Shown here: one piece after another, positions 1-64,000 of the stretch | Numbering within the stretch: position 1 is the first letter of the stretch | How the letters are laid out: each line of letters opens with the position of its first letter | Assembly (NCBI GenBank): GCA_903813345.2 | Contig: CAIIXF020000007.1 | Span: 13,188,714 to 13,252,713, forward strand | From: Owenia fusiformis | Taxonomy: Eukaryota > Annelida > Polychaeta > Sabellida > Oweniidae | Reading direction: 5' to 3' | DNA: 64,000 nt | The notes under the pieces: generated by a model | The model's input: the letters and a program-made list of their open reading frames with translations, nothing else | What the model was told of the DNA's origin: nothing | Databases searched by the model: none | Program-made: the position numbers and the translations under genes

Positions 1-2511
1 GCCGGTGATGAGTTTGGTGGCTCTCCTTTGTATTTTCTCAATCTTATTAATGTCCAATTGATATCTGGGATTCCAGGCTACGGTGCAGTATTCCAGGTGG
101 GGGCGGACTAGGGTTGTGTATAGGGGGAGGAAAATATCTGCATCTTTGTTTGAGAATGTTCTTTTGATTGCACCCAAAATCTTATTTGCTTTGTTTACAC
201 AGTTGGAGACATGGTCATGGAACTTTAAATCCTGGTCAATGGTCACGCCAAGGTCACGTTCTTTGGTGACATCTTCCAGTGGTTGGTTATCTAGTGTGTA
301 TTTGTGGTTGTTGTTATTGTTCCCCAGATGAAGAACTTTACATTTGCTGGAGTTGAATTTGAGCAGCCATTTTTCGGACCACTTGACAAGTTCGTTAATG
401 TCTTCTTGTAGTTTAGTGATGTCGTCTTGTCTGGGAATGGCATTGTACAGCTTCGTGTCATCAGCGAAGATTTTCAAAGTGCTTTTAACTTTCTCGGGAA
501 GATCGTTTATGTAGATTATGAAGGCCAGTGGTCCGAGGCTCGAGCCTTGAGGGATACCACTGGTGACTTCAGTCCAGCTTGAGAGGCTACCATTGACTTT
601 GACTCTCTGTCTTCGTTTAGTCAGGAATGCAGTCAGCCACTTTAGAAGGTTCCCCTTGAAGCCATAGCTGTTTAGTTTTTCAAGTAGTCTGCAGTGCGGT
701 ACGCTGTCAAACGCCCGGGAAAAGTCAAAATATATTACGTCTATTGGGTTGCCAGTATCGAGTAGACTTGTCCAATCCTCAAGTACTGTAAGCAACTGGG
801 TGCTACATGAACGCCCGGGTACAAACCCGTGTTGGGCATCTGTTAATAAGCCCAGTGTCACCATGTGGTTTACCATTGCATCCCTAATTATGGATTCCAT
901 GGTCTTACACAGGATACAAGTTAGCGATATTGGACGGTAGTTGCTGGGAGCTGTTCTTTTACCCTTTTTGTGGATGGGTGTTATCTCGCCGTCTTTCCAG
1001 ATTGATGGTAATGTTCCTGAATCTAGGGATTTGGTAAAAAGCAGACTGAGAGGGAGGGCTAGTTCATGTGAACATTCCAGTAGAAATCTTGCGGGAATAT
1101 TGTCGGGGCCGGGGGATTTGCAGGCTTTGAGCTTTTTGAGTTTATGTAGGACTAGTTCCTCTGTAAATTCTATAGTTTCCAAGGTTTGGGTTGATCTGGG
1201 AGTTATTCTGGGGATGTTTGTGTCGTCTTCTACAGTAAACATGGTGGCGAAGTATTGACTTAGGATGTTTGCCATTTCCGTATTCTCATCTGTTGTACTA
1301 CCATCTGGCTTGTCTAGTGAGCTGATCTTGGGGCGCGTCCTGAGTTTAGAGTTGACGTATGCCCAGAAGGCCTTAGGATTAGTCTTTATTTGTTTGGCTA
1401 TATCTTTCTCAAATTCTTTACATAGCTGTCTGCATAGTCTTCTGGTTTCATTGCTTGTTTTCTTCGCTTTCAGGTAGTCTTGATACGTCTTGGTTTCTCT
1501 GTAGTGTTTCCAGGCCTTGGCTTTTCTTCGCAGTTGCCTTAATCCTCTTAGTGTCATCCATTTTTTCCTTTTCTTTTTGTTGGTTTTGAAAGGAATATTT
1601 GCTTCAATGTTGTCCATGATGGTTCTATGGAGTATGTTCCAGGCTGTCTCTGTAGTTTTCCCACTGAGTTCTTGTTTCCAGTTTATGTTTTTAAGGTTGT
1701 TCCTGATTGTATCATAGTCTCCTTTGTTGAAGTTTCTGGGTGTTGGGGAATCAAGCGGGGGTATGGGCTTCTGGTCTAACATGGTAAGATTGAACTTGAG
1801 TGTAAGATGGTCGCTGAGTCCTAGTGGTGTGTCGTAGCTTATGTCACTTATGGTATGTTCTTCTTTCGTGATAATCAGGTCAATTAGAGTGTCTCGTTGT
1901 CCATGGCGTTTCCGTGTGGGTTCTGTAATGTGCTGGTATAAGAATAAGTTCTGGAGACAGTTTACGTATCTTGTACTAATATGGTCTTCACATGCAGATG
2001 ATGTCATGTCTTCCCAGTTGATCTCTGGTAGGTTGAAGTCCCCTATAATGCACAGTTGAGTGTGACTGGATGAGGCAAGTTCCTTTGTGAGCTCTATAAG
2101 TTCTGTTTGCTGGTCTGTTGTGTCTCTAATGCTGGGGCTTCTGTAGATTCCACATAGTAGTAGCCTTGTTTTGTCCTTAAGGGTCACTGTGAGAGCTAAG
2201 TGTTCAATGAATCTACTTTCTGTTGATTCGTATGACTGTACATCTATGGTGTTGTTAACGTATATGACTATTCCCCTCTTCGTTTTTTGTGATTCTGATG
2301 TGTCATCAAAGTTCCTGTAGCAGTCGTATGTATCGTTTGAGATCCGAAGTTCGCTGAGAGTCATTGGGTCCTTTCTGTTTTTACACAGGGCTTCTGTAAT
2401 AATTATTATGTCTGGGTTTTCAGACTCTGCTGTTAGTTCAAGTTCTTTAATTTTATTTGATAACTGGTCTGCGTTGCTGTACAGAAATTTTATGGGGGGG
2501 TGGTTGCCTAG
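1..2511 (-). CDS. LINE ORF2 (endonuclease-reverse transcriptase), partial, no upstream AUG
   Basis: This is the catalytic polyprotein of the LINE: the endonuclease nicks target DNA and the RT copies the RNA at the nick. Endonuclease blocks are NADQLSNKIKEL, DIIIITEA, IGDFNLPEINW (about 2014-2045), RDTLIDLIIT and GLSDHLTL (about 1820). The linker contains NPKAFWAYVNSK. RT blocks are KSPGPDNIPARFL, NYRPISL, QHGFVPGRSCSTQLL, YFDFSRAFDSVPH (near 711-735), GIPQGSSLGPLAF and FADD (457-468), then the thumb-side WNPRYQLDINKIEKIQRRA reaching base 1. ORF2 is in the same frame as ORF1 and follows it directly after TGA. The first in-frame ATG lies well inside the endonuclease domain, so ORF2 has no obvious start of its own. 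The frame is open to the window edge (837 codons seen), and the RT C-terminus and 3' UTR lie outside. Confidence 0.92.
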
Positions 2512-2514
2512 TCA
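2508..2514 (-). promoter_or_regulatory. Candidate stop-codon read-through site (UGA CUA G) between LINE ORF1 and ORF2
   Basis: On the minus strand ORF1 ends AAC CAG TGA and continues CTA GGC AAC in the same frame into the endonuclease. UGA-CUAG is the best-known leaky stop context, as in alphavirus nsP3/nsP4 and several animal read-through genes. A C7 run sits nine bases after the stop. The sequence is seen directly; use of read-through is inferred. Confidence 0.5.
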
Positions 2515-4332
2515 CTGGTTGCCTGCAGCCTGGGACAGGCCGTCAAGGTCACATGGGGCTTTTCCACAGTTTTGAGAGAGTGGGGGGCTTGTTGTATTTG
2601 GTCTGCATTCTGGGAGTGATGGGGCGTCTGTGGGGGGTGCTTCCTCTGTTTCCACAGGACTTTCATGAAGTGGGTCTATTTCATCTGAGCTGCTGGACTT
2701 AACACTGCAGGTGTCGGATCTGTCTGGGACCTCGACATCCGAAGTTGTATAGTCATTATCGAGGTTACACAGGATTTCAAAGGTTTTTTCGATTTGGATT
2801 GGCTGAAGTTTCGAGTTTGACGGATTTTTTGGCCTGACATCGCAGTGCAATGTAGTTGGTTCGGATTTGTTGTTCTCTGGCTTGTCTGTTGAATCAGTAT
2901 TTTTAACATACGTGGATGTAGGCTTGTCTGGCTTGGATTGGTTTGGTTTTCTTATGTCTGCATTGGTTGAGGAGAGGGATAGGGTTGACTCGGAGCGGGG
3001 TAAATTTCCATCGCAGTATTTGAGTCGCATATCACGATCTCGGAACCTGGGTGGTATTTGGTCACGAGTCCTCTGTGGTCGTCCTCCTCGGGGAGCTGCT
3101 CCACCCCTACCTCGTTGCCTGTAGGACACAGTGTCCCTCTGCTGTTGGGAGTTTTGTTCATTTTGTGGAATACTCACTATTTTTCCTCGTCTGATAGCTA
3201 GATTTTCTTCACCTAATTCTCTTCTTCCTTTCAATTCTTCTCTTAATCTCCTAGAGATTTCACGGTCTTCGGGAGATTGGTCGGGGTGGATGTATATGTT
3301 GTCCCATCGTCCTTCGTATCTGAGTCTGCGTGCGCGGGACAATATTTGTCCAGTGTATGTGTCATCCTTCATCATTACTAGTAGGAGTCTAGGCTTGTTA
3401 AGTTTTCTACCTAATCTGATTGTTTTGATAATCTGGATATTTAGGAGTTCAAGGCCATCCTCAAATATCTGTTTAACTTCTTCTAGGTCTTGGGCCTGGG
3501 CAGTATTAGGATTGGGGGATGTGGGCTCTTCCAGATTGTGAAGGACTATGTTCTTTTTACGTCTTTCCTGGTCATTTACACTTCTGAATCCAGTTTTTAC
3601 AGATTCTAGGACATTGGGATAGATTTTGTTTTCAGAATTTTGAACTACTGCTGAAAAGGATTTGCTAAGCTGGGTAACTTCTTTTAATGATTTTTCTACT
3701 GATCCTTTTCCAAGATTTATCTCTTTGAGTGAATCACTGAATGTTTCAACTTTTTGGATTACATTCTCGTACAACCCCTGGAGGTGGTTCACTTTGGTGG
3801 AGACTGAGTCCAGGCTCTTCTTTGCCTGGGTTTGATCTTTTTTGATGGATTGTAGGGAATGAGCAACCGATTTTGCAACTTCAACGATACCTGCTTTTGA
3901 TTGTGCCAGAATATATTTGACCTGGGGTTCACATTCATGACAGTACCAGTGGGTTTGGTTGGTTGATGCAGTGAGTAGGGCAAGATCGTTTTTGTTGAGA
4001 TTTTCACAAGAGTTGCAAAGCCAGAGATCGCAAAATTCACACCCTAGAAGATTTGAATTCGGGATATCACATCTGTCACAATTATGTTGAATAGAAGTAT
4101 GCTTACCAGCTGTAGATTTCGCGCCGCCTGCGCTCTGGGTCTTCTCTAAAATCAGTTTTGGTGAGATGATTTTTTTCAATTTTTCAAGTTTTGATGACTT
4201 CTCGTTTGACTTCTCGCGGGATTTAAAACCCCTTTTTGACTTACTGTCATGTCGTTCTAGGTCGGTTTTATTCACCTCAGTTTCGTCTTCATTTGCGGCT
4301 GCTTGTTCAGTAGATACTCCTCTGGTTCTCAT
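2512..4332 (-). CDS. LINE ORF1 protein, 606 aa (PHD-like finger + coiled coil + RRM-like domain)
   Basis: This is the nucleic-acid-binding ORF1 protein of the LINE. It would coat the element RNA and help target-primed reverse transcription. In order: a basic N-terminus (1-80); a Cys-rich PHD-like finger with candidate ligands C85, C88, C98, C101, C106, C109, C131 and C134, ending in the typical WYCHEC; a coiled-coil-prone stretch (about 140-250); an RRM-like block beginning RRKKNIVLHNLEE (257-350); a charged helix with REELKGRRELGEENLAIRRG (365-385); an RG-rich patch (about 405-425); and a long Ser/Thr/Pro-rich tail. The start ATG at 4332 is the first in frame. The stop is TGA at 2512-2514, and the frame stays open beyond it into ORF2. 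PHD-bearing ORF1 proteins are known in CR1-type elements. Confidence 0.9.
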   Translation of the reverse strand: MRTRGVSTEQAAANEDETEVNKTDLERHDSKSKRGFKSREKSNEKSSKLEKLKKIISPKLILEKTQSAGGAKSTAGKHTSIQHNCDRCDIPNSNLLGCEFCDLWLCNSCENLNKNDLALLTASTNQTHWYCHECEPQVKYILAQSKAGIVEVAKSVAHSLQSIKKDQTQAKKSLDSVSTKVNHLQGLYENVIQKVETFSDSLKEINLGKGSVEKSLKEVTQLSKSFSAVVQNSENKIYPNVLESVKTGFRSVNDQERRKKNIVLHNLEEPTSPNPNTAQAQDLEEVKQIFEDGLELLNIQIIKTIRLGRKLNKPRLLLVMMKDDTYTGQILSRARRLRYEGRWDNIYIHPDQSPEDREISRRLREELKGRRELGEENLAIRRGKIVSIPQNEQNSQQQRDTVSYRQRGRGGAAPRGGRPQRTRDQIPPRFRDRDMRLKYCDGNLPRSESTLSLSSTNADIRKPNQSKPDKPTSTYVKNTDSTDKPENNKSEPTTLHCDVRPKNPSNSKLQPIQIEKTFEILCNLDNDYTTSDVEVPDRSDTCSVKSSSSDEIDPLHESPVETEEAPPTDAPSLPECRPNTTSPPLSQNCGKAPCDLDGLSQAAGNQ

Positions 4333-7788: not shown

Positions 7789-7859
7789 ATTTTATGTTTT
7801 CTGTGGTTTTAGCTGCTTGTTCCTTTGTTCCTGAACCCAGGATAAACTCTGTAGCATAA
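7789..7859 (-). CDS. CCNH: CCNH exon 7 (last recognised)
   Basis: It completes Ser and encodes [23 protein letters not shown], aligned with human [24 protein letters not shown]. The acceptor is AAATTTTAG and the donor T|GTAAGA. Similarity here is weaker than in the earlier exons. If the donor were not used, the frame would run on without cyclin similarity to a stop about 35 codons later. Confidence 0.75.
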
Positions 7860-10800
7860 CTAAAATTTAAAGAAATATATATAAAAAGGCAATTAATACC
7901 AAGTCAGTGTGTCTTTTCACAAACTAATTTGTAAGAAGGTCAGGTAAGGAACACTTAATAAAAACAACATTTATATTTTTATCAGGTCCCATATTTGATA
8001 GTCACACTCACATACATGTATCTATTGTATAAAATCAATGATATTCTCCCTCCTGTTAATATGAGATACTCACACTCACATACATGTATCTAATGTATAA
8101 AATCAATGATATTCTCCCTCCTGTTTATATGAAATACTCACACTCACATACATGTATCTAGTGTACAAAATCAATGATATTCTTCATCCTGTTTATTTGA
8201 AATATTCACACTCACATACATGTATCTAGTGTATAAAATCAATGATATTCTCCCTCCTGTTTATATGAAATATTCACACTCACATACATGTATCTAATGT
8301 ATAAAATCAATGATATTCTCCCTCCTGTTTATATGAAATATTCACACTCACATACATGTATCTAGTGTATAAAATCAATGATATTCTCCCTCCTGTTTAT
8401 ATGAAATACTCACACTCACATACATATATCTAGTGTATAAAATCAATGATATTCTCCCTCCTGTTTATATGAAATACTCACACTCACATACATGTATCTA
8501 GTGTATAAAATCAATGATATTCTCCCTCCTGTTTATATGAAATACTCACACTCACATACATGTATCTAGTGTATAAAATCAATGATATTCTCCCTCCTGT
8601 TTATATGAAATACTCACCTATCTAAGTTGATTCCAAGTTTAGAGGCACTGGAGAGCAATGCAGATAATGCAATCTGAAATCAGTAATCAAATTGAATTAA
8701 ACCTGTTTCAGTCACAACTAATACATATTAATTCATTCATTCAGATTCAAACATGACATTCTCTAATTTAGTTTCTCAACCTATCAGAATGCAGCATAGT
8801 CATGCTCCAATTCTTGATACATGAACGACCATGCATCTATTCATGGGATTCTATTAATTGTGTTGTACTGTGACGTCACATCTGCAAATTGCAAAATTAA
8901 CAAGAAGGGTTCGTTATTTCAAGCACCTCAATCCCTGATTCTTTGAACAATGTTTTCATTTTTTTATGTTTGAATCGGAATAAATAATGATAGATCATTA
9001 AAAATGGTGAAATACGACATTCAGTGAACAGAATATCAGCACAAATTCACTCACCTTCGGTTCATGCTTTGTACAACACGCTGCATTTCACCATATTGAA
9101 TGGCCTCGTTATCATTAATTCATTACGTATAACTTAAATATAACATTATAGAAAGGGTTTTTACATGTAATTAAAAATGCAACTTCTCAATTTCTATTAA
9201 TGAAAATGCAACTTATTAATTTCACCACAATTCATTATATCCTAAAAATATGAAGAGAAGAGGTGAATGGCTGTTCTTGAAGAATTACCTTAAACAAGAA
9301 GAGTATTTACCTGTGAAGGTGCATACAACACGAAGCGTATTTACCTGTGAAGGTGCATACAACAAGAAGAGTATTTACCTGTGAAGGTGCATACAACAAG
9401 AAGAGTTTTTACCTGTGAAGGTACATACAACAGGAAGAGTATTTACCTGTGAAGGTGCATATGGCAAGAAGAGTATTTACCTGTGAAGGTGCATACAACA
9501 AGAGGAGTATTTACCCGTGAACGTGCATACAACAAGAAGAGTATTTACCTGTGAATGTGCATACACTAGGAAGAGTATTTATATGTGAAGGTGCATACAC
9601 CAGGAAGAATATTTACCCGTGAAGGTGCATACAACAATAAGAGTATTTACCTGTGAAGGTGCATACAACAAGAAAAGTATTTACCTGTGAAGGTGCATAC
9701 AACAAGAAGAGTATTTACCTCTAAAGGTGCATACAACAAGAGGAGTATTTACCTGTGAAGGTGCATACAACAAGAGGAGTATTTACCTGTGAACGTGCAT
9801 ACAACAGGAAGAGTATTAACCTGTGAAGGTGCATACAACAAAAAGAGTATTTACCTGTGACGGTGCATACAAGAAGAGTATTTACCTGTGAAGGTGCATA
9901 CAACAAGAGGAGTATTTACCTGTGAAGGTGCATACAACAAGAAGAGTATTTACCTGTGAAGGTGCATACAACAGGAAGAGTATTTACCTGTGAAGGTGCA
10001 TACAACAAGAGGAGTATTTACCTGTGAAGGTGCATACAACAGGAAGAGTGTTTACCTGTGAAGGTGCATACAACAAGAAGAGTATTTACCTGTGAAGGTA
10101 CATACAACAAGAAGAGTATTTACCTGTGAAGGTGCATACAACAAGGGGAGTATTTACCTGTGAACGTGCATACAACAGGAAGAGTATTTACCTGTGAAGG
10201 TGCAAACAACAAGAAGAGTATTTACCTGAAAAGGTGCATACAACAAGAAGAGTATTTACCTGTGAAGGTGCATACAACAAGAGGAGTGTTTACCTCTGAA
10301 GGTGTATACAACAGGAAGAGTATTTACCTGTGAAGGTACATAGAACAAGAAGAGTATTTACCTGTGAAGGTGCATACGGCAAGAAGAGTATTTACCTGTG
10401 AAGGTGCATACGACAAGAAGAGTATTTACCTGTGAAGGTGCATACAACAAGACGAGTATTTACCTGTGAAGGTGCATACGGCAAGAAGAGTATTTACCTG
10501 TGAAGGTGCATACGACAAGAAGAGTATTTACCTGTGAAGGTGCACACAACAAGAAGAGTATTTACCTGTGAAGGTGCAGACATTTAGAAGCGCATTTACC
10601 TGTGAAGGTGCATACAACAAGGCAGCGTCTGTCTGGAGCACTCGATCTAAGAACTCATCTGCACCCTGGCGACTTCTGTCCACTTCTTCAGGTTTAAGAG
10701 ATTTGCAACGAGTCTGAAAGGTAATTTTTTTAACTTTTATCCTCAACCTTACTCAAATCATTATACCTATGATCACACCTACTTATATCATAAAGTACGC

Positions 10801-13800
10801 ACAATTTCTCTGGCAATTGAATGTCATTCAAGAATATCTGTTGTTTCATGGAGTTTATGCGATTCATTATTCAAATTGAATTTGATTAATCAGGTCAACC
10901 TTAAATGGTTATATGAGACATCACAAAGTAGTACTATGTTCCATGTTGGAAGAAAATTCAGGAATTTAAATTTATGATACTTTCATGAAACCCACATTTA
11001 TATCAATGACTAATCTCTCTAGAAACCTTTATATTAATGACTAATCCCTCTGGTATCTCACCTTTGTATCAAAGACTAATCCCTCCGGTATCTCACCTTG
11101 ATATAAATGACTAATCCCTCTGGTATCTCACCTTTATATCAAAGACTAATCCCTCTGGTATCTCACCTTTATATCAATGACTAATCCCTCTGGTATCTCA
11201 TTATTATATCAATGACTAATCCCTCTGGTATCTCACCTTTATATCAAAGACTAATCCCTCTGGTATCTCACCTTTATATCAATGACTAATCCCTCTGGTA
11301 TCTCACCTTCATATCAATGACTAATCCCTCTGGTATCTCACCTTTATATCAAAGACTAATCCCTCTGGTATCTCACCTTTGTATCAAAGACTAATCCCTC
11401 CGGTATCTCACCTTGATATAAATGACTAATCCCTCTGGTATCTCACCTTTATATCAAAGACTAATCCCTCTGGTATCTCACCTTTATATCAATGACTAAT
11501 CCCTCTGGTATCTCATTATTATATCAATGACTAATCCCTCTGGTATCTCACCTTTATATCAATGACTAATTCCTCTGGTATCTCACCTTTATATCAAAGA
11601 CTAATCCATCTGGTATCTCACCTTTATATCAATGACTAATCCCTCAGGTATCTCATTATTATATCAATGACTAATCCCTCTGGTATCTCACCTTTATATC
11701 AATGACTAATCCCTCCAGAGGTCTGTATGGGTTGTGTACTGTCAGGTGATAAGTCAATTCATGCATTAATAATAGTTCATAGCTGAGAATCATGTCAGTC
11801 ATTTTCTCCCTATTTGACTTGAGATTCTTCACAAACTGCATGATTGACACATTGAATTCCTCAACTTTACATCCCAAATATACACAAGTCAACCTGGAAT
11901 TAATTCAATACAAAATCATATGTTATATTTTTTCTGCAACAAAAAAGAGGAAACCCAAATAGTACATAATTTTATAACATTGAGCATATTGAGAAAGCTC
12001 TTCCTTAAAATTATTGTCAGCTTTCATGATTTTAGGTATTTTAAACTGCATTGATTTTTGTTTATCAAATACATGTACATATTATTCAAACAAGGTATCC
12101 ACATAGATAGCCTTATATTGAATTAACTTCAGGTCTGCATTAACTTACATGATGTCCTTTGGATGATAATCCATTATAGAATTATTCAAGTAAAACCTCC
12201 TGAAGTACATCATTGATGTTCCCTATAGAAAAACAGAGGAGCTTATTATCTTCAAGAGTTAGAAATTCTATTTCAGATTCATGATAAAATGAGCAGCAAT
12301 GAACTTTCACAAATATTCAAATTAAAGTACATAATATTTCTACATAAATTACATAAGTAATCTGAACTTCATATTTTTGCTTAATGCAAAAGAATTCGTA
12401 GTACCTAATGATGTTCAAAAATAACTTACAATTACATATTTGGGCATAGGAGGCTGAAACTGCACACAAAACTCTCTTAGGGCATTTATATAAAATCTCA
12501 GTAGCACATATTCTTCCGTTGGTGACAGGAACTTTTCACTCCTTTCTTCTTCCTAAAATTAGAGTAAAATAAGATTCGTATTTGAACTTTCTTGGCTCGC
12601 TCCCTGGGATCCCTATTGCTCATCATTGAAGTTTTTGTTTTCACATATTCCATCACTGGTATGTGTTTTCATTCAGAAGTATTATTATTATGTCGCTTTT
12701 ATTCCCATAATAAAATGGATTAAACATGTAAACATAAATCAATCAAACAATGCAACAATAACCAAAACATATACAACATTTACACACGCAATAAACAAAG
12801 AACAAAACATAACAAAACAAATAAAAATAAAAGTTTACAAAGTTAAAAGCAAGTAAAAATTGCACCTCTGGGGTTTTAATTGCATGTCATAACTCAACGG
12901 TTATAGCTTATTGGAACGGTGTGTTTAATTCTACATTAGAGTTTTTAATTATATTGCTAAAGTAAGGCAACACAATGTTTACCGTTTTCTAATTAACACA
13001 GTCGCTAAAACAAGACTGTGTTTATTTGAAAACGGTAAACATTGTGTGAAATCATGTGAAATACATGTGAATGGGTCCTTCAAATAAAATAAGCACCATA
13101 AAATAAGATCTGTATTTGAACGTTCTCACTTCATAGAATTTATAATGGCAACCATTGGAGTTGATGATTACATAATAATAAAATAATAATAATATATTGT
13201 GTAATTGGAGAAGTATCTTGTAATATCTTATATTATCCCATAGTTGAGGTCAAATCTGTATTGGCGGATCTGGGAAGCAAAAAGGGGGAGGGGCAAATTT
13301 TAGGTCTGAATTTTGGACTCCTAAAATCAAAAAGTGGGCCCAAATTTTGAAATTTATATATTATATTTACTTGAATATAAAGTGTTCCCAAAATCAATTC
13401 TCTTATCATTGAGGTGTTTACTAAGGGTATATGAAATATGGTTTTTCAGCTTCATGACCACGTTTGGTCCAAGTTTGACAATGATGTGACAAGAATCATC
13501 TAAGGACCTATCAATAAAAATTCCTAGGTATTTATATGTTTGAACCTCATTTAATTTTAGATCTCCCAAAGACCAAAGTTATCAATTTTCTTACCTACGA
13601 CCATAATTTGGGATTTTTTCTCACTAAATCTAAAACCAAATTTAATTTAAGAAGTGTTCTAATCATTTATGTACCTCCATACTTAATGGATTCGTAGAGT
13701 ATCATATCAGTTCCCACTGCTTCACCATTTGGAAGTCGTTTTATATGTGAAGCTTAAAGGAATATTCCTTGCCAAACCATCTCTCTCCTCACATGGTAGC

Positions 13801-16800: not shown

Positions 16801-17873
16801 ATGTATATGAACCATTACACTTACTTGATAAATTAAGGACCTACATGTTTGTGACTTCACATAATGTTTCAACCATTTCACCATTAGGACTAGGGGAGTC
16901 ATTTTTATTGAACTGCTTTAGCTTGCCATTGAAATTACCCATTAATAACACAAAATCACCTGTATTTTCTAGAGTTGCAATATTTGACATTAATTCATCA
17001 GTAAGAGCATGACTACGTTTGGGGTCTTTACCATCATTAGGATAATAGGCAATACCAAGTTACCAACACTAAAAGTTTGATCCTATATTTTTACCCGATC
17101 CAATATCGTTCAAAATCATTCCTTTTTGAGCTCAAAAAGGTCGTCATTTATAAAGTACTATCATTTTAATTCACTCATTGATATCAATATCTGAACTCAT
17201 TTGTTACACGATCAACTTGTGGAGAAAAATAATATCACTTAAAATCATAGGATATCCTATTGAGTGTTCTCCCCAGAATTTTTTCTCAAGTGGGTGCAAA
17301 ATTCTTGTTTTCACAATCAGATCAAAATTGGCCAAAATATGCCAATTTTTCATGATTTTTCTCATTTTCAAGTTCAAGTGGGTTCAAATGGATTTTCAGT
17401 TGGGTGCTGAATGAATATAATTGTCTATGTAAATGGGAAATGCAAGATTCCATATTGATTTTATATTATCAAGTCCTTTGTTTTTAAAATCATCTAAATA
17501 AGGCAAATGCTATTTTACTATTGAGAAAATCAAAATGGCCTCCAGTTTTTTAGTTATTTATTTTGCTTGTGCAAATCAATAAAAAAACAGCTGATAGGAT
17601 AAACATTAGATTGAGGTATGAACTCTGATTATGCAAAGGAGATACATGAAGGCATGCTTGACACAATAATTTGGGACTTTATGAGTGGCTATCGTGTATA
17701 AGGCTGGAATAAACAGATTTCAGCTGATTCTGGGAAGAGTAAAATAGATCACTCACATTAAGATGCTCTCCAAAGCCATCCACATATTTTTTATTTGCTT
17801 TTTCTCTGAGTTTCTTTAGGTCATCCTCTCCACTGAACATCCAGTGTTTCCTTTGAGTGCTGGTGGGAAACAT
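7789..17873 (-). CDS. CCNH: Cyclin H (CAK/TFIIH regulatory subunit), seven coding exons, C-terminus not found
   Basis: Cyclin H partners CDK7 and MAT1 in the CDK-activating kinase; within TFIIH this kinase phosphorylates the Pol II CTD. Exons on the minus strand are 17873-17757, 12552-12430, 12222-12149, 11893-11692, 10713-10600, 8673-8618 and 7859-7789. All join in phase with GT/AG introns, giving 252 residues. The N-terminus [19 protein letters not shown] matches vertebrate cyclin H (MYHNSSQKRHWTFSSEEQL), keeping Ser5. Cyclin boxes follow: [77 protein letters not shown] and [15 protein letters not shown]. An in-frame TGA two codons upstream supports the start. Human cyclin H has 323 residues, so about 70 C-terminal residues are missing here. 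Introns 4, 5 and 6 carry splice-site minisatellites; intron 1 (5.2 kb) carries transposons. Confidence 0.93.
7985..8617 (-). repeat. 68-bp minisatellite (about 9 copies) in CCNH intron 6, starting at the 5' splice site
   Basis: Nine copies of a 68-bp unit, spaced 68 bases (caatgat at 8035, 8172, 8240, 8308, 8376, 8444, 8512, 8580). The copy next to exon 6 begins with the functional donor. In CCNH sense every further unit also carries GTGAGTATTTC, the exact donor plus intron start, preceded by a second GTGAGT instead of exon sequence. Confidence 0.9.
8618..8673 (-). CDS. CCNH: CCNH exon 6
   Basis: It encodes [18 protein letters not shown] plus two bases (phase 2), equivalent to human IALTAILSSASRAGI. 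The acceptor is ATTTCAG and the donor GTGAGTATTTC. The 68-bp array begins at this donor. Confidence 0.9.
8674..9295 (-). other. CCNH intron 5, unique part
   Basis: AT-rich intron sequence between exon 6 and the 34-bp array. I see no exon or element in it. Confidence 0.6.
9296..10599 (-). repeat. 34-bp minisatellite (about 38 copies) built from the CCNH exon 5 end and its splice donor
   Basis: In CCNH sense the unit is the last 21 coding bases of exon 5 (codons LLYAPSQ) followed by the donor GTAAAT and seven intron bases. The array directly abuts the real exon 5 donor at 10599 and fills most of intron 5. Units vary at one or two sites (GGC, GAC, AGG variants), with occasional shorter units. 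Each unit keeps CACAG|GTAAAT almost unchanged and is preceded by a pyrimidine-rich CTTCTTGTTG, so it resembles an acceptor and donor back to back. Confidence 0.95.
10600..10713 (-). CDS. CCNH: CCNH exon 5
   Basis: 38 codons, [15 protein letters not shown] through LLYAPSQ, matching human [24 protein letters not shown]. The acceptor is ACCTTTCAG and the donor GTAAAT. Its last 21 bases are copied in every unit of the downstream 34-bp array. Confidence 0.93.
10714..11002 (-). other. CCNH intron 4, unique part
   Basis: AT-rich intron between exon 5 and the 35-bp array. It includes the poly-pyrimidine acceptor of exon 5. No other feature is seen. Confidence 0.6.
11003..11691 (-). repeat. 35-bp minisatellite (about 20 copies) built from the CCNH exon 4 end and its splice donor
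   Basis: In CCNH sense the unit is the last 24 coding bases of exon 4 (EGLVIDIK) plus 11 intron bases starting GTGAGA. The array abuts the true donor at 11691. Units far from the exon are the most diverged (near 11010-11060). A run of nine units near 11057 recurs near 11371 with the same variants, indicating block duplication of about 315 bp. Several units keep AAAG|GTGAG intact; some have TTATTATAT in place of CACCTTTATAT and so lose the donor. Confidence 0.94.
11692..11893 (-). CDS. CCNH: CCNH exon 4
   Basis: It completes Met, then encodes [16 protein letters not shown] through [14 protein letters not shown]. The donor is GTGAGA. The last 24 exon bases plus the first 11 intron bases form the repeat unit of the array that starts at this splice site. 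Confidence 0.94.
12149..12222 (-). CDS. CCNH: CCNH exon 3
   Basis: It encodes [15 protein letters not shown] and IMDYHPKDI, equivalent to human GTACMYFKRFYLNNS. The acceptor is TTTTTCTATAG and the donor GTAAGT after AT, so the next codon is split (phase 2). Confidence 0.93.
12430..12552 (-). CDS. CCNH: CCNH exon 2
   Basis: 41 codons, [16 protein letters not shown] through MPKYVI. The acceptor is CTAATTTTAG and the donor GTAAGT; phase is 0 at both ends. It corresponds to human PHEEMTLCKYYEKRLLEFC. Confidence 0.93.
12971..13046. repeat. Near-perfect 76-bp palindrome (hairpin)
   Basis: Arms of about 33 bp (CACAATGTTTACCGTTTTC... and its complement) flank a loop of about 10 bases. It lies in CCNH intron 1. 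It resembles a minimal fold-back MITE or the two termini of a deleted transposon; no target duplication is clear. Confidence 0.75.
13758..14359. mobile_element. TTAA-flanked fold-back MITE (Kolobok/piggyBac-like), 602 bp
   Basis: Both ends read AGGAATATTCCTTGCCA inward and are flanked by TTAA (13754-13757 and 14360-14363). The arms are about 200 bp each, imperfectly complementary along most of the element, and share GATGTCATC...CTCTCAACTT near the centre. A TTAA duplication is typical of Kolobok and piggyBac; the AGG start suggests Kolobok. It is inserted in the LINE remnant. Confidence 0.8.
14853..16372. mobile_element. Transib-like non-autonomous element, 1.52 kb, long TIRs, 5-bp target duplication
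   Basis: The termini begin CACTGGTGATC on both ends, with about 155-165 bp of inverted repeat (14853-15016 and 16217-16372). The flanks carry the direct repeat TCTGG (14848-14852 and 16373-16377). A CAC start and a 5-bp GC-rich duplication are the hallmarks of the Transib/ProtoRAG lineage, which resembles V(D)J recombination signals; the heptamer here (CACTGGT) deviates from CACWRTG. The interior has no long ORF. The element splits the linker of the LINE remnant, so it is younger than that LINE. Confidence 0.6.
15018..15226. repeat. About 209-bp palindrome inside the Transib-like element
   Basis: The left arm (AGAAAATGTATAGG... AGAAGACAACACAATCG...) is complementary to the right arm ending ...GTTGTCTTCTGAACTATTTG, around a loop of about 35 bases near 15110-15145. 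The central 50 bp of each arm are nearly identical. It sits immediately inside the left TIR and could be an inverted duplication or a nested MITE. Confidence 0.75.
17757..17873 (-). CDS. CCNH: CCNH exon 1
   Basis: It encodes residues 1-39, from ATG at 17873 to ...GFGEHLN. The donor is GTGAGT at 17756-17751 and the exon ends in phase 0. The codons just upstream read CCC TGA AAG, fixing this ATG as the start. Confidence 0.92.
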
Positions 17874-61300: not shown

Positions 61301-64000
61301 TTCTCTTCCAATAGGTCATTACCTTTCCAATGACTTATACCAATAGCACATTGCCCCAACTAATGGCCTTTTCTCTTCCAATAGGTCATTACCTTGCCAA
61401 TGACTTATACCAATAGCACATTGCCCCAACTAATGGCTTTTTCTCTTCCAATAGGTCATTACCTTGCCAATGACTTATACCAATAGCACATTACCCCAAC
61501 TAATGGCCTTTTCTCTTCCAATAGGTCATTACCTTGCCAATGACTTATACCAATAGCACATTGCCCCAACTAATAGCTTTTTCTCCTCCAATAGGTCATT
61601 ACCTTGCCAATGACTTATACCAATAGCACATTGCCCCAACTAATGGCTTTTTCTCTTCCAATAGGTCATTACCTTGCCAATGACTTAAACCAATAGCACA
61701 CTGCCCCAACTAATGGCCTTTTCTCTTCCAATAGGTCATTACCTTGCCAATGACTTATACCAATAGCACATTGCCCCAACTAATGGCCTTTTCTCTTCCA
61801 ATAGGTCATTACCTTGCCAATGACTTATACCAATAGCGCATTGCCCCAACTAATAGCTTTTTCTCCTCCAATAGGTCATTACCTTGCCAATGACTTATAC
61901 CAATAGCACATTGCCCCAACTAATGGCTTTTTCTCTTCCAATAGGTCATTACCTTGCCAATGACTTATACCAATAGTACATTGCCCCAACTAATGGCTTT
62001 TTCTCTTCCAATAGGTCATTACCTTGCCAATGACTTATACCAATAGCACATTGCCCCAACTAATGGCCTTTTCTCTTCCAATAGGTCATTACCTTTCCAA
62101 TGACTTATACCAATAGCACATTGCCCCAACTAATGGCCTTTTCTCTTCCAATAGGTCATTACCTTGCCAATGACTTATACCAATAGCACATTGCCCCAAC
62201 TAATAGCTTTTTCTCTTCCAATAGGTCATTACCTTGCCAATGACTTATACCAATAGCATATTGCCCCAACTAATGGCTTTTTCTCTTCTTATAGGTGATT
62301 ACCTTGCCAATGACTTATACCAATAGCACATTGCCCCAACTAATGGCTTTTTCTCTTCCAATAGGTCATTACCTTTCCAATGACTTATACCAATAGCACA
62401 TTGCCCCAACTAATGGCCTTTTCTCTTCCAATAGGTCATTACCTTGCCAATGACTTATACCAATAGCACATTGCCCCAACTAATGGCCTTTTCTCTTCCA
62501 ATAGGTCATAACCTTGCCATTGACTTATACCAATAGCACATTGCCACAACTAATGGCTTTTTCTCTTCCAATAGGTCATTACCTTTCCAATGACTTAGGC
62601 CTATACCAATAGCACATTGCCCCAACTAATGGCATTTTCTCTTCCAATAGGTCATTACCTTGCCAATGACTTATACCAATAGCCCATTGCCACAACTAAT
62701 AGCTTTTTCTCTTCCAATAGGTCATTACCTTGCCAATGACTTATACCAATAGCACATTGCCCCAACTAATAGCTTTTTCTCTTCCAATAGGTCATTACCT
62801 TGCCAATGACTTATACCAATAGCACATTGCCCCAACTAATGGCCTTTTCTCTTCCAATAGGTCATTACCTTGCCAATGACTTATACCAATAGCACATTGC
62901 CCCAACTAATAGCTTTTTCTCTTCCATTGGGTCATTACCTTGCCAATGACTTATACCAATAGCACATTGCCCCAACTAATGGCTTTTTCTCTTCCAATAG
63001 GTCATTACCTTGCCAATGACTTATACCAATAGCACATTGCCCCACCTAATGGCTTTTTCTCTTCCAATAGGTCATTACCTTGCCAATGACTTATACCAAT
63101 AGCACATTGCCCCAACTAATGGCCTTTTCTCTTCCAATAGGTCATTACCTTGCCAATGACTTATACCAATAGCACATTGCCCCAACTAATGGCCTTTTCT
63201 CTTCCAATAGGTCATTACCTTTCCAATGACTTATACCAATAGCACATTGCCCCAACTAATGGCTTTTTCTCTTCGAATAGTTCATTACATTGCCAATGAC
63301 TAATACCAATAGCATATTGCCCCAACTAATGGCCTTTTCTCTTCCAATAGGTCATTACATTGCCAATGACTTATGCCAATAGCACATTGCCCCAACTAAT
63401 GGCCTTTTCTCTTCCAATAGGTCATTACCTTGCCAATGACTTATACCAATAGCACATTGCCCCAACTAATGGCCTTTTCTCTTCCAATAGGTCATTACCT
63501 TGCCAATGACTTATACAAATAGCACATTGCCCCAACTAATGGCTTTTTCTCTTCCAATAGGTCATTACATTGCCAATGACTTATACCAATAGCACATTGC
63601 CCCAACTAATGGCTTTTTCTCTTCCAATAGCTCATTACCTTGCCAATGACTTATACCAATAGCACATTGCCCCAACTAATAGCTTTTTCTCTTCCAATAG
63701 GTCATTACCTTGCCAATGACTTATACCAATAGCACATTGCCCCAACTAATAGCTTTTTCTCTTCCAATAGGTCATTACCTTGCCAATGACTTATACCAAT
63801 AGCACATTGCCCCAACTAATGGCTTATTCTCTTCCAATAGGTCATTACCTTGCCAATGACTTATACCAATAGCACATTGCCACAACTAATAGCTTTTTCT
63901 CTTCCAATAGGTCATTACCTTTCCAATGACTTATACCAATAGCATATTGCCCCAACTAATAGCTTTTTCTCTTCCAATAGGTCATTACCTTTCCAATGAC
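55330..64000. repeat. 70-bp satellite, about 124 copies, continuing past the window
   Basis: The unit contains CATTGCCCCAACTAATGGCC, TTTTCTCTTCCAATAGGTCA, TTACCTTGCCAATGACTTAT and ACCAATAGCA. The period is 70 bases, with rare 1-base deletions (GGTCATACC) and one 6-base insertion (TAGGCC near 62600). Variants (GGCC, GGCT, AGCT; CACATTG, CATATTG, GCGCATTG; TTATACC, TTAAACC) recur in the same order in distant blocks. Each unit has three CCAAT motifs (unit positions 30, 49, 62) and a pyrimidine tract ending CCAATAG|GT. The first units, near 55330-55400, are the most diverged, as expected at an array edge. The right edge is outside the window. Confidence 0.97.

Follow-up and report, generated by a model that had tools for sequence, protein, structure and literature searches.

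A minisatellite across the exon 5/intron 5 junction of CCNH in the annelid Owenia fusiformis, probably a tolerated mirage

Tandem repeats that span exon-intron boundaries are termed 'mirages' in amphioxus, where, according to excerpts of the two papers concerned, they occur in Adh3, the globins BflGb6 and BflGb9 and troponin C, and PGBD5 contains similar repeats (PMC3087553, PMC3902484). These excerpts place mirages at 5' or 3' boundaries, with units of 10 to ~160 bp and, in many cases, AG/GT signals. On the basis of Adh3 data and globin RT-PCR, they are said not to disturb regular splicing. One globin mirage has 6 and 3 units in two haplotypes, and mirages have been proposed as a source of new introns (same excerpts of PMC3087553, PMC3902484). 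In the literature that we found, this named class is described from lancelets. The human IFI6 (6-16) gene reportedly contains a minisatellite with multiple splice donors, to go by the title of a 1995 study by Turri and colleagues. Two downstream repeat units of IFI6 are said to serve as donors, giving rise to three mRNAs (excerpt of PMC4526556). In one model, introns are also gained by tandem duplication of AGGT segments (the Rogers model, vertebrate ATP2A1 and a 24-bp exonic repeat of fission yeast) or by duplication of an intron-exon piece, as in potato RdRp (excerpts of PMC4974935). Among annelids, large minisatellites occur in intron 1 of earthworm metallothionein (excerpt of PMC12783039). 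Junction-spanning arrays in annelids are not described in the literature that we found, which is weak evidence given that few subscription journals were covered, nor in the excerpt of PMC12153100.

We identified such arrays in CCNH of O. fusiformis, which is encoded on the minus strand of a 64,000-nucleotide stretch of DNA (the window). Exons 1-7 form an open frame of 252 residues, the translation of which matches the cyclin C-terminal and N-terminal domains and is up to 61% identical to cyclin-H proteins among the matches listed. No exons beyond exon 7 were identified within the window. The homolog search covered lengths of ~139-441 residues and found 469 proteins, the best 120 of which were listed; no Owenia cyclin-H protein is among these 120 of 469, where one of ordinary length should rank first. 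The parts of the gene are as follows (window coordinates).

17757..17873, minus strand: CCNH exon 1, with the start codon at 17873 (splice model)
12430..12552, minus strand: CCNH exon 2 (splice model)
12149..12222, minus strand: CCNH exon 3 (splice model)
11692..11893, minus strand: CCNH exon 4, ending ...LEGLVIDIK (splice model and homolog alignment)
11691-10714, minus strand: CCNH intron 4 (splice model)
10993..11715, minus strand: junction array of CCNH intron 4, 35-bp unit, 20.8 copies (repeat finder and reading of the units)
10600..10713, minus strand: CCNH exon 5, ending ...LLYAPSQ (frame open, match to the cyclin C-terminal domain, final residues conserved across 120 aligned homologs)
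10598..10599, minus strand: exon-adjacent donor of CCNH intron 5, CAG|GTAAAT (read from the sequence; putatively used in the mRNA)
8674..10599, minus strand: CCNH intron 5, 1926 bp, phase 0 (splice model)
9293..10621, minus strand: junction array of CCNH intron 5, 34-bp unit (Tandem Repeats Finder and unit-by-unit count)
8618..8673, minus strand: CCNH exon 6 (splice model)
8617-7860, minus strand: CCNH intron 6 (splice model)
7998..8617, minus strand: array of CCNH intron 6, 68-bp unit, 9.1 copies (repeat finder and reading of the units)
7789..7859, minus strand: CCNH exon 7 (splice model)

Other repeats lie in and beside the window. A LINE-type retroelement with a reverse transcriptase frame occupies 1-4300 on the minus strand (reading of the sequence). 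A 70-bp satellite-like array of ~134 copies (9.4 kb) runs from 55347 to the window's end at 64000 and on to window-relative 64733, and is strongly GC-skewed, the plus strand being rich in C. Three long arrays are present at window-relative -18772 to -863, and by eye their right-hand ends resemble the acceptors of exons from an EML-like and an EF-hand gene.

Exon 5 terminates CTTGTTGTATGCACCTTCACAG|GTAAAT at 10600/10599, and the 34-bp unit of intron 5 consists of the 22 nt of the exon 5 end and 12 nt of the intron, so that units read ...CACCTTCACAG|GTAAAT. Tandem Repeats Finder places the array at 9293-10621 (period 34, 39.2 copies), and counting by unit gives 39: the exon-adjacent unit, 37 full-length units and one of 31 bp at 9873-9843. 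An earlier note on this DNA had proposed ~38 tandem copies of the exon 5 end plus its donor, and 38 extra copies were indeed counted. Its unit composition (exon end plus donor) was right, although the exon part is 22 bases rather than the last 21, and its description of intron 5 as 'filled' by the array was too strong, as the last 619 of the 1926 bp lie outside. The picture of one true 5' splice site followed by dozens of near-identical copies is borne out, with GT preserved in 36/37 full extra copies. The nine-base core of the true donor, CAG|GTAAAT, is the same in most donors of the array. A genome pattern search with the intron 5 core sequence, allowing at most 1 mismatch, returned 32 matches, all within the intron 5 array and none elsewhere in the genome.

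That note named intron 5 alone; CCNH has three arrays at donors, in the consecutive introns 4, 5 and 6, while no array large enough to be counted (unit of at least 12 bp, at least 2.5 copies) lies in introns 1, 2 or 3. The 35-bp unit of intron 4, present in ~20 copies, comprises 24 nt of the exon 4 end and 11 nt of the intron, and reads TTGATATAAAG|GTGAGA; by inspection, no pyrimidine tract precedes AAG|GT. The donor GT is kept in 16/19 full extra copies, and a AATAATGAG variant recurs among the units. The array of intron 6 begins exactly on the donor G and has no exon sequence in its unit. Its repeated copies carry GT without an AG before it, and the joins between copies read GTGAGT|GTGAGT; the original breakpoints may therefore have carried a short repeat.

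The anatomy of these units bears on a second proposal of the earlier note. Recursive splice sites (ratchet points) have AG|GT back to back. Intron 5 units end ...ACCTTCACAG|GTAAAT, a back-to-back AG|GT that had been taken for an acceptor and donor in recursive layout, by which intron 5 would be removed in steps of at least one unit. The AG lies ahead of the GT because the exon end was duplicated together with the donor: it is the exon's own CAG end, and every duplication of a CAG|GT junction will show AG|GT. The acceptor-like part is missing from the units of introns 4 and 6, and a pyrimidine-tract acceptor directly joined to a donor was not found as a feature common to the arrays, the intron 5 unit alone resembling one by inspection. 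In addition, the intron is 1.9 kb long and one step would remove 34 bp, which is shorter than usual spliceosomal introns. A ratchet role is not supported by the unit anatomy of introns 4, 5 and 6, and we regard it as very improbable.

Use of a later donor would add whole 34- or 35-base units in introns 5 and 4, respectively, and at least 62 bases in intron 6. Alternative donors were tested in intron 5 (36, being those that read [A/C/G]G|GTAAA), intron 4 (15) and intron 6 (14), and each of the 65 leads to a premature stop before exon 7 ends. The expectation that a later donor 'usually' shifts the frame was too weak, given a premature stop in 36/36 intron 5 donors tested. Insertions at CCNH junctions 4|5, 5|6 or 6|7 are absent from all 120 homologs listed (of 469 found).

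The exon-derived parts of the array copies vary like non-coding DNA, with replacement changes near the neutral expectation. Replacement/silent variants number 17/5 in intron 5 copies (14.7 replacements of 22 expected under neutrality), 9/2 in intron 4 copies (8.0 of 11), 26/6 in a donor array of the neighbouring gene PIKfyve (24.4 of 32) and 19/8 in a donor array of NUB1 (20.2 of 27). Where the real exon of PIKfyve differs from its array consensus, the differences are synonymous only (3/3 sites); the NUB1 exon (69 of 83 exon bases compared) differs from its consensus at one synonymous and one M/V site. Donor GT is retained in 36/37, 16/19 and 46/49 copies of the arrays. A functional reading would likewise predict such high retention, though recent amplification explains it.

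The possibility that several array donors are used, as reported for human IFI6, with copy number tuning the amount of productive CCNH mRNA through nonsense-mediated decay, draws on the donor core shared by most copies and on the premature stops, which provide a setting where leakage would cut output. Against this, GT is lost in 3/19 intron 4 copies, and the donor core there is more variable per column than the rest of the unit (~1.3 variant cells vs 0.9 elsewhere), the reverse of intron 5 (~1.1 vs 2.1; both counted from the unit alignments). Selection to keep decoy donors is rejected on this ground, as the core is better kept in intron 5 and worse in intron 4. The deposited NUB1 protein uses the exon-adjacent donor. 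The suggestion that the array could tune output is unsupported, and we consider it unlikely; compared with the remainder of the unit, the donor core is not more strongly conserved in any consistent way.

We conclude, with a probability of roughly 0.85, that the intron 5 array is a mirage minisatellite that arose by tandem duplication across an exon-intron junction and is tolerated with the exon-adjacent donor in use. We envisage that a tandem duplication across the exon 5/intron 5 junction was followed by expansion to 38 extra copies inside the intron, and that array length may rise and fall by slippage or unequal exchange. The spliceosome would take the exon-adjacent donor and the whole array would be removed with one intron, making the array near neutral, and any leak to later donors would yield transcripts with early stops. 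The array would be tolerated because the exon-adjacent donor is used, as we infer for CCNH. Tolerance by first-donor preference, one of the options in the earlier note, gains from the truncation that 65/65 later donors tested would cause, from the absence of insertions in all 120 homologs listed (of 469) and from NUB1 and PIKfyve proteins that skip the copies; the preference itself is predicted for CCNH.

PIKfyve is located on the same contig, at window-relative 143-193 kb to the right, with NUB1 further right, and both have arrays at junctions as well as deposited Owenia proteins. We identified the following (window-relative coordinates).

147853-154249 (contig 13336566-13342962): PIKfyve intron whose donor end carries an 83-bp unit in 59 copies and whose acceptor end carries a 60-bp unit in 22 copies
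144614-146186, 172255-173335, 184468-184757, 180719-182221 and 171783-172028: other PIKfyve arrays, each overlapping an acceptor or ending at most 5 bp from one
203097-205252: NUB1 donor array, 116-bp unit, 18.7 copies
211992-212384: NUB1 acceptor array, 69-bp unit, 5.6 copies

The 83-bp PIKfyve unit, composed of 81 bases of the exon end plus GT, is the most extreme case with its 59 copies. In intron 22 of the PIKfyve model the array is interior. A 37-bp array at 229150-229297 copies the final coding bases of the terminal NUB1 exon together with its stop region.

A splice model of PIKfyve that uses exon-adjacent sites throughout (24 exons, 23 GT-AG introns) reproduces the deposited O. fusiformis protein P0121 at 1559/1559 residues. 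Of the 23 introns behind this protein, 4 carry acceptor-touching arrays, the copies of which are skipped. The deposited Owenia NUB1 protein P0241 joins LLEQNVK|HGSQ across the donor array with the 116-bp unit and PNA|ESRLRS across the acceptor array. No residues from array copies occur in the deposited Owenia NUB1 and PIKfyve proteins. The NUB1 protein is 95% identical to its Owenia match and 45% and 48% identical to two listed from Branchiostoma. With the full PIKfyve match, these figures identify the DNA as Owenia and rule against amphioxus as its source. These deposited proteins probably derive from the annotation of PMC9977687, which, according to an excerpt of that paper, used RNA-seq splice junctions, with 99.29% of transcripts RNA-seq supported. 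The same excerpt states that 5,779 repeat-overlapping gene models were removed (PMC9977687), and our guess is that this removal could explain the missing Owenia cyclin-H. The deposited PIKfyve protein stops short of the kinase exons, the part of the gene with its largest arrays. Repeat filtering may remove real genes, with CCNH and the kinase end of PIKfyve as candidates among Owenia proteins.

Tandem arrays are easily mis-assembled. An assembly artefact is nonetheless highly improbable here: the three CCNH arrays differ from one another and have unit-specific variants, including AATAATGAG in intron 4 and the 31-bp unit in intron 5, and the PIKfyve exons between arrays are intact and yield a protein identical to the deposited one.

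Arrays with units of at least 9 bp make up 68.7 kb (26%) of the 264 kb around and including the window. The junction count took arrays with a unit of at least 12 bp and at least 2.5 copies; 43 introns of CCNH, PIKfyve and NUB1, excluding PIKfyve introns 164754-156660 and 156565-154760 and several of NUB1, contain 21 such arrays, and 11/21 touch a junction, meaning that they reach to within 5 bp of it (a donor in five cases and an acceptor in six). With expected counts calculated for uniform placement of each array within its own intron, and minus the three arrays that led to the genes, 8/18 touch vs 0.54 expected (Poisson-binomial P ~5e-9). Past window-relative 165 kb, where almost every PIKfyve intron is covered by the deposited protein (the array at 191631 is in an intron outside it), the figures for PIKfyve are 4/9 vs 0.25 expected (P ~4e-5). 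An earlier count over 34 introns had 10/18 arrays touching, and 7/15 minus the three index arrays. By the repeat finder's coordinates two arrays lie 21 bp and 125 bp from a junction, but a diverged last copy carries each of them up to it; both remain classed as interior in these statistics. The arrays of CCNH introns 4 and 6 were no part of the earlier note's finding.

Neutrality alone does not account for arrays sitting at junctions so often. One candidate cause, which would add to the tolerated-mirage reading and is compatible with it, is that junctions are hotspots for minisatellite birth through some mechanism linked to splicing or transcription, such as R-loops, paused polymerase or U1-marked sites. 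The excess of 8/18 vs 0.54 (three index arrays out) and that of 4/9 vs 0.25 in the PIKfyve introns beyond 165 kb speak for it, as do the two arrays that meet a junction through a diverged last copy and the PIKfyve intron with arrays at both ends. However, PIKfyve and NUB1 were not chosen blind, having been noticed since their array units read as protein, and any enrichment of donor motifs over all array units is slight at best. In a set of 60 arrays from the region (unit of at least 15 bp, at least 2.5 copies), units with donor-like motifs at 7 bits number 20/60 vs a mean of 14.0 in shuffles (reached by 3/100 shuffles), followed by 11 vs 8.6 at 8 bits (18/100), 5 vs 4.7 at 9 bits (49/100) and 2 vs 2.5 at 10 bits (75/100). 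Strong enrichment of donor motifs across array units is thus rejected, and because the enrichment is at most slight, there is no need to regard the majority of the region's arrays as donor arrays. A donor-specific (U1) cause is insufficient, since donors and acceptors are both affected. Taken together, we give junction-targeted birth somewhat less than even odds. The broader proposal, that in this annelid minisatellites are actively born at junctions, where ongoing directed duplication repeatedly copies donors and acceptors and inflates introns while preference for exon-adjacent sites makes the genome immune, is put forward tentatively, as less likely than not.

The presence of three arrays in one annelid gene, and of more in two neighbours, suggests that at least one spiralian genome has many such arrays and that they add to intron growth. 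They may hide genes from annotation. Each array also represents a natural test of how the spliceosome chooses one donor among dozens of near-equal ones, a long-standing question.

Comparison with the known systems places the Owenia arrays closest to mirages. As in amphioxus, the units of CCNH introns 4 and 5 cross an exon-intron boundary, whereas the intron 6 array does so only at its edge. The unit lengths of 34, 35 and 68 bp fall inside the amphioxus range of 10-160 bp (excerpt of PMC3087553), and AG/GT is carried by most units of introns 4 and 5, while intron 6 copies have GT without AG. Unlike the amphioxus cases, the host is an annelid, and the copy numbers, known from one Owenia assembly, are 38 extra copies in CCNH intron 5 and up to 59 in PIKfyve vs the 6 and 3 units of the globin mirage. 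Moreover, one Owenia gene has arrays in three introns in a row, and a single intron has them at its two ends. As in IFI6, a minisatellite beside an exon repeats its splice donor, but every later CCNH donor tested truncates the protein. The tandem copies resemble intron-gain duplications in carrying AG and GT able to pair as splice sites (excerpts of PMC4974935); they differ in that they sit in an existing intron, and a new intron is not needed as an explanation. The earthworm metallothionein gene shares large minisatellites within an annelid gene intron, although the excerpt of PMC12783039 does not describe its units as containing an exon end or donor. The intron 5 unit has the AG|GT of ratchet points, but this derives from a duplicated exon end, the intron is short, and the sister arrays are without this layout. 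The structure is real and is ordinary in kind for a mirage; what is new, as far as the literature that we found goes, is the phylum, the copy number and the share of the arrays in the examined genes that lie on junctions.
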